From Anaerolineales bacterium (GTDB lineage: Bacteria; Chloroflexota; Anaerolineae; Anaerolineales; JABWBV01), in NCBI GenBank assembly GCA_013359445.1, contig JABWBV010000006.1:1-32750 (forward strand): 32,750 nt of DNA. Direction: 5' to 3'. Shown here piece after piece: positions 2,754 through 6,508 of the stretch. The notes beneath the pieces were generated by a model, which was not told the DNA's origin, ran no database searches, and saw only the letters and a list, made by a program, of their open reading frames with translations. The position numbers were made by a program, and so were the translations under genes. Position 1 is the first letter of the stretch, and each line of letters begins with the position of its first letter.

Positions 2754-2782
2754 TTGACGACCCAAAAACTCTATAGTATTAT
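2754..2782 (+). promoter_or_regulatory. Sigma-70-type promoter
   Basis: TTGACG (2754-2759), a 17-nt spacer and TATTAT (2777-2782). This is the best -35/-10 pair in the left third of the window. The expected transcription start (about 2788-2790) falls at the first base of the branched RNA described at 2790-2857. Confidence 0.6.
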
Positions 2783-2789
2783 GCCTTTT

Positions 2790-2857
2790 GCGTCTGGGAT
2801 GAGTCGCCAAGCGTCTCATCTTAGGGCTTTTAGCCCTAAAACCAGTCGCTTTTTTTT
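2790..2857 (+). ncRNA. Candidate ~70-nt branched small RNA or attenuating leader
   Basis: An outer stem pairs GCGTCTGG (2790-2797) with CCAGTCGC (2842-2849), with one T-T mismatch. It encloses two hairpins. Hairpin 1 is GATGAG / CTCATC (2798-2803 / 2815-2820), continued by CGC / GCG around a CAA loop. Hairpin 2 is TTAGGGCT / AGCCCTAA (2821-2828 / 2832-2839) with a TTT loop. A T8 run (2850-2857) follows at once, as in an intrinsic terminator. With the promoter at 2754 this forms a complete unit. It matches no riboswitch class I can recognise. It could be a free sRNA or an attenuator of the mutase gene, which starts 53 nt later. Confidence 0.5.
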
Positions 2858-2910: not shown

Positions 2911-4566
2911 ATGACAAATCTAACTTCATCTTTATCTCGTTGGGAACAAACCACCCTCCACCCCCCCCTCTCCCGCTTCCCCGAACGCAAACCGGACTTC
3001 CAAACCTCCTCCGGCATCCCCCTCCCCCGCCTCCTGACTCCCGAACACGAAGATCACTACGACGAAAAACTCGGCTTCCCCGGCGAATACCCCTTCACCC
3101 GCGGTGTCCAGCCCACCATGTATCGTGGCCGTTTCTGGACGATGCGCCAGTACGCGGGCTACGCCACCGCCGAAGACTCCAACGCCCGCTACCGCTACCT
3201 GCTCGGACAGGGGCAAAGCGGCCTCTCCGTCGCCTTCGACCTCCCCACCCAGATCGGCTACGACGCGGACGACCCGATGGCGGAAGGCGAAGTCGGCAAA
3301 GTGGGCGTCTCCATCTCCTCCCTCGCCGACATGGAAACGCTCTTCCGGGACATCCCGCTCGACAAAGTGTCCACCAGCATGACGATCAACGCCCCGGCCA
3401 CGATTCTGCTTGCCATGTACATCGCCGTCGGCAAACGGCAGGGCGTCGAACCCCGTAAGTTGCGCGGCACCGTGCAAAACGACATCCTCAAAGAATACAT
3501 CGCCCGCGGCACCTACATCTTCCCCCCCACCCCCTCGATGCGGCTCATCACCGACCTCTTCCGCTACTGCAAAGCCGAAGTCCCGCACTGGAACACCATC
3601 TCCATCTCCGGCTACCACATCCGCGAGGCCGGTTCGACCGCCGTGCAGGAAGTGGGCTTCACCCTCGCCGATGGCATCGCCTACGTGCAAGCCGCCATTG
3701 ACGCGGGGCTGGACGTAGACGACTTCGCCGATCAGCTCTCCTTCTTCTTCAATGCCCACAACAACTTCCTCGAAGAAGTCGCCAAATTCCGCGCGGCCCG
3801 CCGCTTGTGGGCGAAGATCATGCGCGAACGCTTCGGCGCGAAAAACCCGAAGTCGTGGATGCTCCGCTTCCACACCCAGACGGGGGGCAGTACCCTGACC
3901 GCGCAACAACCCGAAAACAACGTCGTCCGTGTTGCCCTCCAAGCCCTCGCCGCCGTCATGGGGGGCACTCAATCGCTCCACACCAACAGCATGGACGAGG
4001 CCCTCGCCCTCCCCACCGAAAAAGCCGTCCGCATCGCCCTCCGCACCCAGCAGATCATCGCCAACGAATCCGGCGTTGCCGACACCATTGACCCTCTCGC
4101 CGGTTCCTACGTCATCGAATATCTCACCGACGAAATCGAACGCGGCGCGGCGGAATACCTCCGCAAAATTGACGAAATGGGCGGTGCGCTCGCGGCCATC
4201 CAAAACGGCTACGTCCAGGGCGAAATTCAAGATGCCGCCTACCATGCCCTGCAAGCGGTCGAAACCGGCGAAGATGTTGTCGTCGGCGTCAACGCTTACG
4301 AAATCGAAGAAGAACTTACGCTTGAAAAACTCAAAGTAGACCCCGCCATCGAACACTCCCAACGCGCCAAACTCGCCGCCCTCCGCGCCACCCGCGACCC
4401 CGCCCGCGTCGCCGAACTCCGCACCCGCCTCGACACCACCGCCCGCACGAGCGAAAACCTCCTCCCCCTCTTTGTCGAATGTGTCGAAAACGATCTCACC
4501 CTCGGCGAAATCTGCCATACGTTGCGCGGTGTGTGGGGGGAGTATCAGGCTTCGAGTTGGATATAA
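2911..4566 (+). CDS. Methylmalonyl-CoA mutase, large (catalytic) subunit
   Basis: Converts (R)-methylmalonyl-CoA to succinyl-CoA by a radical rearrangement that needs adenosylcobalamin. The 551 residues cover only the substrate-binding TIM-barrel part. Visible family motifs are [12 protein letters not shown] (about 80-91), [14 protein letters not shown] (101-114), [11 protein letters not shown] (186-196), [13 protein letters not shown] (231-243, with the conserved active-site His) and [17 protein letters not shown] (about 323-339). The chain ends near residue 551 without the C-terminal B12-binding domain (no DxHxxG). It therefore needs a separate small cobalamin-binding subunit, a split arrangement known in archaea and several bacteria; that partner is not in this window. 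The epimerase acting just before it lies at 7735, beyond an inserted restriction-modification island. A weak ribosome-binding site precedes the ATG. Confidence 0.93.
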
Positions 4567-4600: not shown

Positions 4601-6508
4601 ATGAGTTTGGCAATCTCCAACGGTTTTCAAAAATTCCTGGATGGGTTTTCCACCGAAAGCACGCGCGCGGCTTTTCTCCTCCATTGGGCGAAAACGAATG
4701 AAATTTCTGTTAAAACCATTCGTCGAGGCTATGCCGTTCAAAAATTATTAGAAGAGGGGAATAGCGCGGACTTAAAACCGTTGGAGGGGTATCTCAAAGC
4801 TAATGTTGGCAAAATCACGCTAAAGGATTTGGAAAAGGCTTTTGAAACCCTCATCGCGCCTGAAAAAAGACGTGCTTATGGGACGGTTTATACGCCAGAT
4901 TACATCATTGAGTATCTTTTCCGCAATGCACTTAAATTCTCTCAGGGACAACATCCCCAATATCCTCGAATTTGCGATCCATCGTGCGGGAGTGCAGGAT
5001 TTTTGCTTAAGGCCGCAGAAATTTTAGAAAAGGATTACGGCATTACGGCTGACAGGGCTTTTCAAGCGCATTTGATTGGAATAGATGTCGATCCGGTAGC
5101 GCTTGAAAACGCTCGCTGTTTGATTGAACTTTATCTCGCCTCAAAGGGTGTACAACAGGCAAACTTGTCGTTATTTCAATTGGATTCTTTGCTAACGGAG
5201 CAACTTGAACTATTGCGTTTAACCCAAACGCAAGATGGATTTGATGTGGTAGTTACCAATCCCCCTTATGTAAAGTTCCAGAACCTGGAACCAGAATACC
5301 GCACACAGTTGATGGAGAAATACAGCCAATTTGCGATGGGCAATTTCAGCCTTTCGCTCTTATTTTTGATGCGCGGGCACGCACTCTTGTCTTCTGGGGG
5401 TACGGTTGGGATGATCACACAAAATAACCTGTTCACCTCACTGGCCGGGAAAAATGTGCGTGCGTATTTACAGCAAACCGAAAGTGTCCGTCGCATTGTT
5501 GATTTTGGGCATCACAAGGTTTTTGAAAATGCCAGCGCATATACGTGTCTGGTTTTCCTGAGTGCAACGAAAAATAAAACCTTTGAATATGCGACGCTTT
5601 CACATGTCCAAACGCTTGATCCTCCTTCGCTTGAAACCCTTCGCTTTGCTTCCATTGCATTTGAGAAACTAAAAGCCAGCAAGTGGAGGCTGGCGAATGC
5701 AGATCACCTGGCAAATTTAGAAAAAATAGAGCGTATAGGTAAGCCTTTGGGAGTAGCCGCCGACATTAAAGTTGGGTTTGCCACCTTGAAAGACACTGTG
5801 TTTTTTGTGCAGGCAAATGGGAAAGATTGTTGGGTGAAATCGAAGAATGGAACTTTATACCATATCGAATCTGAAATCACCAAACCTGCCGTGAAAGTAT
5901 CCAGTCTCAAAGAGACTGCTGATTTAGCGCACAATACGCTACGAATCATTTTCCCCTACGAACGAAAGAATGGCGGTTATAAATTGATTTCCGAAGAGCG
6001 GTTGAAAGCGAACTATCCCAAAACCTATGCTTACCTTCTTGCCCAAAAAGACCTGTTGGCTCAGCGCGACAAAGGCAAAAAACAGTATGAAACTTGGTAC
6101 GCCTGGGCCAGAAGTCAAGGCATGGATGCGCCTGGCCCTAAACTCTTGACCAAAACCTTTAGCCGCTTTCCTCAATTTTTTTGGGATAAAAGTGATCAGC
6201 TCTTTTGTAATGGGTATGCTGTGTTTCCAAAGCCCCCGGATTTATTTAGCACAACCGTACCGATTGAGGTGTTGGAAAAGATCCTCAACAGTAAAATCAT
6301 GCATTACTATGCCAAATTAACAAGTTTTGAAATCGAAGGAAATTACCAGTGTTATCAAAAGAATTTTATTGAACGCTTTGGAATCCCCGAATTGAGTTCA
6401 AGCCAAAAGGAAAAACTATTGCAACTTGAAGGGGATGAAGTGAATTTATTTTTAGCAGCCCTTTATGAAATAGATATTGAAGAGATTCTGGAAATTGTCC
6501 CCCAGTAA
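4601..6508 (+). CDS. Type II N6-adenine DNA methyltransferase (gamma class, Eco57I/TaqI-like)
   Basis: Transfers a methyl group from S-adenosylmethionine to adenine in a specific DNA site and so protects the host from the cognate nuclease. The 635 residues show motif X (GTVYTPDYIIEYL, near 97-109), motif I (DPSCGSAGFLLKA, near 126-138), an acidic second strand (LIGIDVDPVALENAR) and motif IV NPPY near residue 224. The order X-I-IV with NPPY is the gamma class. A long C-terminal half (about 300-635) is the likely target-recognition domain. The first 95 residues form an extra helical domain. The gene is clearly more AT-rich than the mutase and epimerase genes beside it, which fits acquisition. 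It converges on the candidate nuclease with a 15-nt gap. Target site unknown. Confidence 0.9.
   Translation: MSLAISNGFQKFLDGFSTESTRAAFLLHWAKTNEISVKTIRRGYAVQKLLEEGNSADLKPLEGYLKANVGKITLKDLEKAFETLIAPEKRRAYGTVYTPDYIIEYLFRNALKFSQGQHPQYPRICDPSCGSAGFLLKAAEILEKDYGITADRAFQAHLIGIDVDPVALENARCLIELYLASKGVQQANLSLFQLDSLLTEQLELLRLTQTQDGFDVVVTNPPYVKFQNLEPEYRTQLMEKYSQFAMGNFSLSLLFLMRGHALLSSGGTVGMITQNNLFTSLAGKNVRAYLQQTESVRRIVDFGHHKVFENASAYTCLVFLSATKNKTFEYATLSHVQTLDPPSLETLRFASIAFEKLKASKWRLANADHLANLEKIERIGKPLGVAADIKVGFATLKDTVFFVQANGKDCWVKSKNGTLYHIESEITKPAVKVSSLKETADLAHNTLRIIFPYERKNGGYKLISEERLKANYPKTYAYLLAQKDLLAQRDKGKKQYETWYAWARSQGMDAPGPKLLTKTFSRFPQFFWDKSDQLFCNGYAVFPKPPDLFSTTVPIEVLEKILNSKIMHYYAKLTSFEIEGNYQCYQKNFIERFGIPELSSSQKEKLLQLEGDEVNLFLAALYEIDIEEILEIVPQ

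Follow-up and report, generated by a model that had tools for sequence, protein, structure and literature searches.

Introduction

RNAs linked to genes of the DUF3800 family are a kind already known from Rfam, in which their function is unexplained. The DUF3800 RNA motifs reportedly originate from Weinberg et al. 2017. In DUF3800-VI (RF02915, 52 nt), an outer stem encloses two hairpins, and the RNA lies directly 5' of the DUF3800 gene. The leader of the DUF3800 gene in Pseudomonas phage Marin was recognized as DUF3800-VI (45.2 bits, cut-off 35), and there a sigma-70-type promoter immediately precedes the RNA, while a terminator separates it from the gene. Among other RNA–protein pairs, the gene order of ToxIN is promoter, RNA, terminator, and protein gene. 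ToxIN is a type III toxin–antitoxin system that combines an RNA antitoxin with a protein partner (PMC8860590). In the AbiF/RCd22 system of Clostridioides difficile, the RNA acts both in cis and in trans, neutralizing a toxic protein through direct RNA–protein binding (PMC12373285). An RNase H fold has been predicted for DUF3800 in published work (PMC10910872), and DUF3800 proteins were described as accessories in Cas12a2 and VI-F/V-A2 CRISPR loci (PMC10910872; PMC12669027).

The window analysed here is a stretch of 32,750 nucleotides of DNA from an Anaerolineales bacterium. A first-pass annotation made from its letters had placed a compact promoter, a branched RNA, and a terminator in front of a mutase gene. 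The RNA, its homologues, and their neighbouring genes were examined and compared with the systems above.

Architecture of the RNA Unit

The features of the unit and the gene behind it are listed in Table 1. The positions given in the first-pass annotation for the promoter, the junction, and the T8 tract were exact to the base on re-examination. The minimum free energy of positions 2785–2860 was −33.2 kcal/mol, compared with −14.8 on average for shuffled sequences (z −6.7; 0 shuffles as stable). This fold and the covariation described below bear out a closed three-way junction, in which an outer stem and two hairpins are followed by the T8 tract.

Table 1. Coordinates of the RNA unit and the downstream gene in the window.
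Feature	Position	Strand	Remarks
−35 hexamer TTGACG	2754–2759	+	kept as TTGACA in most homologues
−10 hexamer TATTAT	2777–2782	+	17-nt spacer; end 6 nt before RNA model position 1
Small RNA gene, model R1 (69 positions)	2789–2857	+	94.6 bits
P1 5' strand GCG-U-CUGG	2790–2797	+	partner 2842–2849; U.U mismatch 2793.2846
P2 hairpin GAUGAG-U-CGC CAA GCG-U-CUCAUC	2798–2820	+	second U.U inside
P3 hairpin UUAGGGCU UUU AGCCCUAA	2821–2839	+	variable helix, strong covariation
P1 3' strand CCAG-U-CGC	2842–2849	+	partner 2790–2797
T8 tract	2850–2857	+	intrinsic terminator together with P1
Methylmalonyl-CoA mutase large-subunit-like gene (PF01642)	2911–4566	+	bystander; at the place of the relatives' DUF3800 gene

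Seven matches to a TTGACG-17-TATTAT-type promoter were found in the window, whereas 6.2 were expected by shuffling. A single match at this chance level was uninformative, and the homologous loci were therefore used for comparison. In 78% of the 37 homologous loci, the best −35/−10 score was at least 9, a level reached by 3% of control stretches; the −10 hexamer ended 5–7 nt 5' of the RNA in 34/37 (Fisher p ~2e-19). The window promoter is credible because the two hexamers are conserved at a fixed distance from the RNA in the homologues. A T-rich tract was present 3' of P1 in most homologues and absent in L145 and L148. Judged from its sequence, the segment 2754–2857 is a predicted promoter, RNA, and terminator unit for a small RNA of approximately 62–70 nt. 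The conserved structure and the promoter geometry support the original proposal of such a unit for a ~70-nt small RNA.

A very strong palindromic terminator of 20 pairs (GATGGGTGGGCATG/CATGCCCACCCATC) was observed at 2554–2601, between a DUF4349 gene and the RNA unit. Hence, the small-RNA promoter would be insulated from upstream transcription.

Homologues and Covariation of the RNA

One copy of the RNA was found in its own genome. A further 36 copies were collected from Chloroflexota, a Leptospira plasmid, and IMG/VR contigs, giving 37 sequences with the window copy. A blastn search of 400 genomes of the same order gave matches in 11 other genomes, one in each; most were 80–96% identical and limited to the RNA itself, and the matches began at its first base. 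These matches comprised nine complete copies, a 20-nt fragment (L100), and a probable chance match (L101). The covariance model built from ten complete copies matched 23 of the 396 genomes of the class, the match in G765 (L128) being apparently due to chance, and it also detected further copies in the phylum. The RNA is thus rare in the class (22/396 genomes, all credible matches) and usually occurs once per genome. L109, L128, L100, and L101 were excluded from the alignment as chance or fragmentary matches.

A scan of IMG/VR with the RNA core pattern matched three contigs, with a DUF3800 start downstream in 3/3, and a protein-led scan yielded one additional RNA sequence on two contigs (L150, L151). 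The same RNA was present on a Leptospira weilii plasmid, 8 nt 5' of DUF3800. No match was obtained in a second IMG/VR pattern scan or in a search of phage and plasmid DNA with the RNA region. The module adjoined tRNA genes on the IMG/VR contigs L150/L151 and L146 (Ser; Arg/Ile), and these tRNA-adjacent copies suggest carriage by integrative elements. Integration at tRNA sites was rejected as a general rule, since it was seen only in L146 and L150/L151.

In the alignment of 37 sequences, 84.6% of the three-way-junction pairs were kept. Changes on both sides were observed in 14 pairs, with 57 such cells, and 0/500 shuffles reached any of the measures. The covariation scores were far lower when the partners were slid by one to three columns. 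Covariation therefore supports all three helices, and the compensatory changes that the annotation had proposed to look for in homologues were present in the 14 pairs. P3 was both the most variable and the most covarying helix, with both-side changes in 7/8 pairs. P1 and P2 were nearly invariant, except for P2 in L108 and L129. A motif was duplicated in P1 and P2 with the strands swapped: 5'-GCGUCU-3' stood opposite 5'-AGUCGC-3' around a central U.U mismatch. The mismatch positions were non-standard in 35/37 and 34/37 sequences. Two distant copies, L108 and L129, had C-G or U-A instead of the P1 mismatch, which places the two positions opposite one another in a helix; P2 was altered in these copies as well. 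The repeated U.U mismatch motif is a putative protein docking site.

These data also bear on the idea that the element is a mere terminator hairpin of an upstream gene, or a repeat or transposon end acting at the DNA level. P1 and the T8 tract qualify as a terminator, and the near symmetry of the structure gives the reverse strand a weak score as well. Base-paired covariation, a promoter conserved at a fixed distance 5' of the RNA, and the separate strong terminator already present at 2554–2601 make this explanation highly improbable. Moreover, the many scattered copies that would have marked the element as only a repeat did not appear, given the single copy in its own genome and usually one per genome elsewhere.

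Genes Adjoining the RNA

The position of the RNA in front of an adenosylcobalamin enzyme gene raised the possibility of an attenuator of the mutase or a cobalamin-related riboswitch. In this single genome, the start codon of the mutase lies 54 nt 3' of the RNA. In contrast, none of 80 mutase homologues had the RNA nearby in blastn and covariance searches, which refuted the link to the mutase as a general association. In the relatives, the RNA precedes DUF3800. The RNA matched none of the Rfam B12 riboswitch families, in agreement with the initial impression that cobalamin-riboswitch features were missing, and no other Rfam riboswitch. This explanation is hardly tenable. Just 3' of the mutase gene, an Eco57I-type DNA methyltransferase gene was observed at 4601–6508, and a restriction-modification locus is possible near the mutase and the RNA.

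The regular neighbour of the RNA was DUF3800. A DUF3800 gene lay directly 3' of the RNA on the same strand in 20/37 loci (16 full length; four cut by the contig end, shortened, or frame-shifted), and a short DUF3800 fragment followed the RNA in eight more (in L119, recognized by eye). The remaining nine loci, including the window, had no DUF3800 of the usual subfamily. One of these nine, L124, carried a DUF3800 of a different subfamily (L124:631–1413, − strand) 87 nt behind the RNA, which brought the total to 21/37 loci. The upstream sequence of L124 was 85% identical to that of L114, which carries the usual subfamily, and L124 looks like a protein exchange behind a retained RNA. The distance from the RNA to the DUF3800 gene was 8–87 nt across the 21 loci. 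The start codon followed 8–34 nt after the RNA in the 14 full-length cases measured, leaving no room for a separate DUF3800 promoter.

The identity of the downstream proteins as DUF3800 was confirmed by Pfam. The similarity between unrelated loci extended from the promoter or the RNA to the end of the DUF3800 gene, indicating that the RNA and the gene were inherited as one module. In the reverse test, the RNA stood directly in front of the gene in 8/11 class genomes with this DUF3800 subfamily. A structured RNA beside a same-strand DUF3800 gene was found in the 21 loci, and beside a fragment in eight, but not at the window copy itself. The window RNA, of roughly 68 nt, is almost certainly a conserved DUF3800-associated RNA.

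Comparison with Catalogued RNAs

No match above an Rfam gathering cut-off was obtained for the window or the homologues, and the weak matches to mir-135, c4-2, and L20-leader were at chance level. The best weak score of a homologue was a full-length match to the c4-2 RNA (RF02944) with 15.2 bits and an E value of 1.4, which is chance against a cut-off of 41 bits. For the window and L093, no DUF3800 model was among the matches up to E 5–10, and RF02915 gave no score above its gathering cut-off in the window or the homologues. A search for RF02969 (DUF3800-I) in 151 genomes gave no match, and the positive controls were silent too. The earlier statement that no known class fits therefore held for the sequence, which no Rfam model matches, but not for the anatomy, which is that of DUF3800-VI.

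The sequence was unrelated to DUF3800-VI and to the other Rfam DUF3800 RNAs (DUF3800-I, RF02969; DUF3800-IX, RF02968). Compared with DUF3800-VI, the window RNA had a longer P1, and the U.U motif occurred in both P1 and P2. P1 was also the terminator stem, whereas a separate terminator hairpin was found in the phage Marin and Escherichia coli plasmid leaders. The DUF3800 genes of E. coli/Klebsiella plasmids and Pseudomonas phage Marin (~25% identical) had leaders in which a 50–60-nt three-way junction came first, then a terminator, and then the gene. The leaders L149, L158, and L159 on small E. coli/Klebsiella plasmids had a three-way-junction RNA and a strong terminator 5' of DUF3800, and nothing above an Rfam cut-off was found when the E. 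coli leader L149 was scanned directly. In the genome G919 (L135, ~2395–2466, − strand), which is a ninth among the 11 class genomes with this DUF3800 subfamily, an RNA of unrelated sequence folded as a three-way junction at the same place, in front of the DUF3800 gene (z −4.6). TTGACA-17-TACATT preceded this RNA and TTTTCTATT followed it, and the promoter geometry was the same. The G919 leader RNA had no Rfam match and is a candidate for a second uncatalogued class.

The shared three-way-junction anatomy implies that the window RNA would work like DUF3800-VI, as far as anatomy tells; by score, it is not a member. Its sequence is distinct and absent from Rfam 15, and a published motif outside Rfam may share it.

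Orphan Copies and Loss of the Protein Gene

No detectable relative of this DUF3800 protein was found in the genome's own assembly, which is 95% complete in 822 contigs and could lack the gene. The window RNA copy was accordingly regarded as an orphan. No convincing DUF3800 remnant was present in the window, and the segment after the RNA (2852–2960) was rejected as an inserted repeat because it is single copy. Across the loci, the protein gene was repeatedly lost while the RNA stayed. The RNA was better conserved than its flanks in the orphan pairs L118/L120 (p ~0.001) and L111/L113 (p ≤0.015). In L120/L123 and L125/L127, the RNA drifted as fast as the flanks, indicating that orphan RNAs need not be functional.

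In L107, a transposase gene followed a truncated DUF3800 start. In L091 and L119, the sequence just behind the T tract was joined, by two separate deletions, to almost identical points in DUF3800 (codons DLVF(K/Q)RA), and the gene was gone while the RNA was kept. These losses were perhaps short-homology deletions.

Structure of the DUF3800 Protein

The AlphaFold2 model of the DUF3800 protein had a pLDDT of 81 and a pTM of 0.81. With VIA-align, the closest PDB structure to the model was RNase HII (Z 9.0, 166 residues), followed by other RNase H-like proteins, including Argonaute. RNase HII was also ranked first by Foldseek, at a level that was not significant. An RNase H-like fold is predicted for DUF3800 on the basis of this model, in line with the earlier published prediction (PMC10910872). 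The invariant residues included D7-E8-S9-G10, E53, H55, E147, D150, D197, and D245, and the C-terminal pattern H-x5-C-x-C-x2-C was invariant.

The predicted fold is consistent with an RNA that serves as a guide or cofactor and activates an RNase H-fold nuclease in a defence or mobile-element ribonucleoprotein. The accessory DUF3800 proteins of the Cas12a2 and VI-F/V-A2 CRISPR loci (PMC10910872; PMC12669027) and the scattered distribution of the module, with plasmid and IMG/VR contigs and the tRNA-adjacent sites L150/L151, point in the same direction. However, the RNA is nearly all paired and conserved, without a variable single-stranded spacer, and no solid PADLOC match was found. A guide or cofactor role is considered improbable.

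Proposed Mechanism

The reading that we lean toward, with modest confidence, is a two-part module composed of a promoter, a ~62-nt three-way-junction RNA, a terminator, and a DUF3800 gene, in which the RNA either partners or inhibits the DUF3800 protein. Transcription would start at approximately position 2789. P1 and the T tract would stop most of the transcription, leaving the RNA in excess, and read-through would supply little DUF3800 mRNA and protein, since a second promoter would not fit into the gap of 8–34 nt. The RNA would bind the DUF3800 protein, and the duplicated GCGUCU/AGUCGC U.U motif would be the likely dock. The bound RNA may hold DUF3800 inactive or may form a working ribonucleoprotein, as in RCd22/AbiF and ToxI/ToxN. 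In this genome, the RNA half would stand alone, either as a recent leftover or as an anti-addiction "antitoxin" without a toxin. Loss of the protein and survival of the RNA fit an antidote-like RNA.

By analogy, AbiF/RCd22 (abiF-motif RNA) is the nearest tested analogue, for there, too, a single protein gene is accompanied by a small structured RNA. Its protein is Abi_2/AbiF rather than DUF3800 and RCd22 has two motifs; the likeness is one of analogy only. The gene order of type III systems (promoter, RNA, terminator, protein gene) was found in the loci keeping DUF3800. A tandem-repeat RNA antitoxin, as expected of type III, was not found; the RNA is a single unit with internal motif duplication only. 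ToxI consists of repeats in a row, and the fold of the endoribonuclease ToxN differs from the RNase H-like fold predicted for DUF3800.

The main rival to the two-part module is a purely cis-acting leader. In this case, the RNA would be a transcription attenuator of DUF3800, in which protein or ligand binding alters read-through, there would be no role in trans, and the window copy would be a dead relic. The terminator sits within the 8–34 nt gap between the RNA and the start codon, Rfam types DUF3800-VI as "Cis-reg", and some orphan RNAs drift neutrally; these points favour a cis leader. Against it, visual inspection revealed no alternative antiterminator pairing, and the terminator stem is P1 itself. 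In the window, where the gene is missing, the RNA, its promoter, and its T tract are all at consensus (94.6 bits), and in two orphan pairs the RNA has changed less than its flanks. Furthermore, the junction is retained where the T tract was lost (L145, L148). A cis-acting leader is hence a possible but unlikely explanation.

A broader extension of the two-part module is speculative. DUF3800 proteins and their leader RNAs might represent widespread RNA–protein addiction or defence modules with one anatomy and fast-changing, partner-specific sequence, and the orphan RNA might be a functional solitary antidote.

Significance

Proteins of the DUF3800 family are common, but neither their function nor that of the several catalogued DUF3800 RNAs is explained. 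The present RNA represents a further sequence class that is not catalogued. Its helices covary strongly, its promoter geometry is exact, the protein is present at some loci and missing at others, and its anatomy recurs in unrelated sequences. These properties make the RNA–protein partnership directly testable. The test system would consist of one RNA and one RNase H-like protein, with clean orphans as natural controls.
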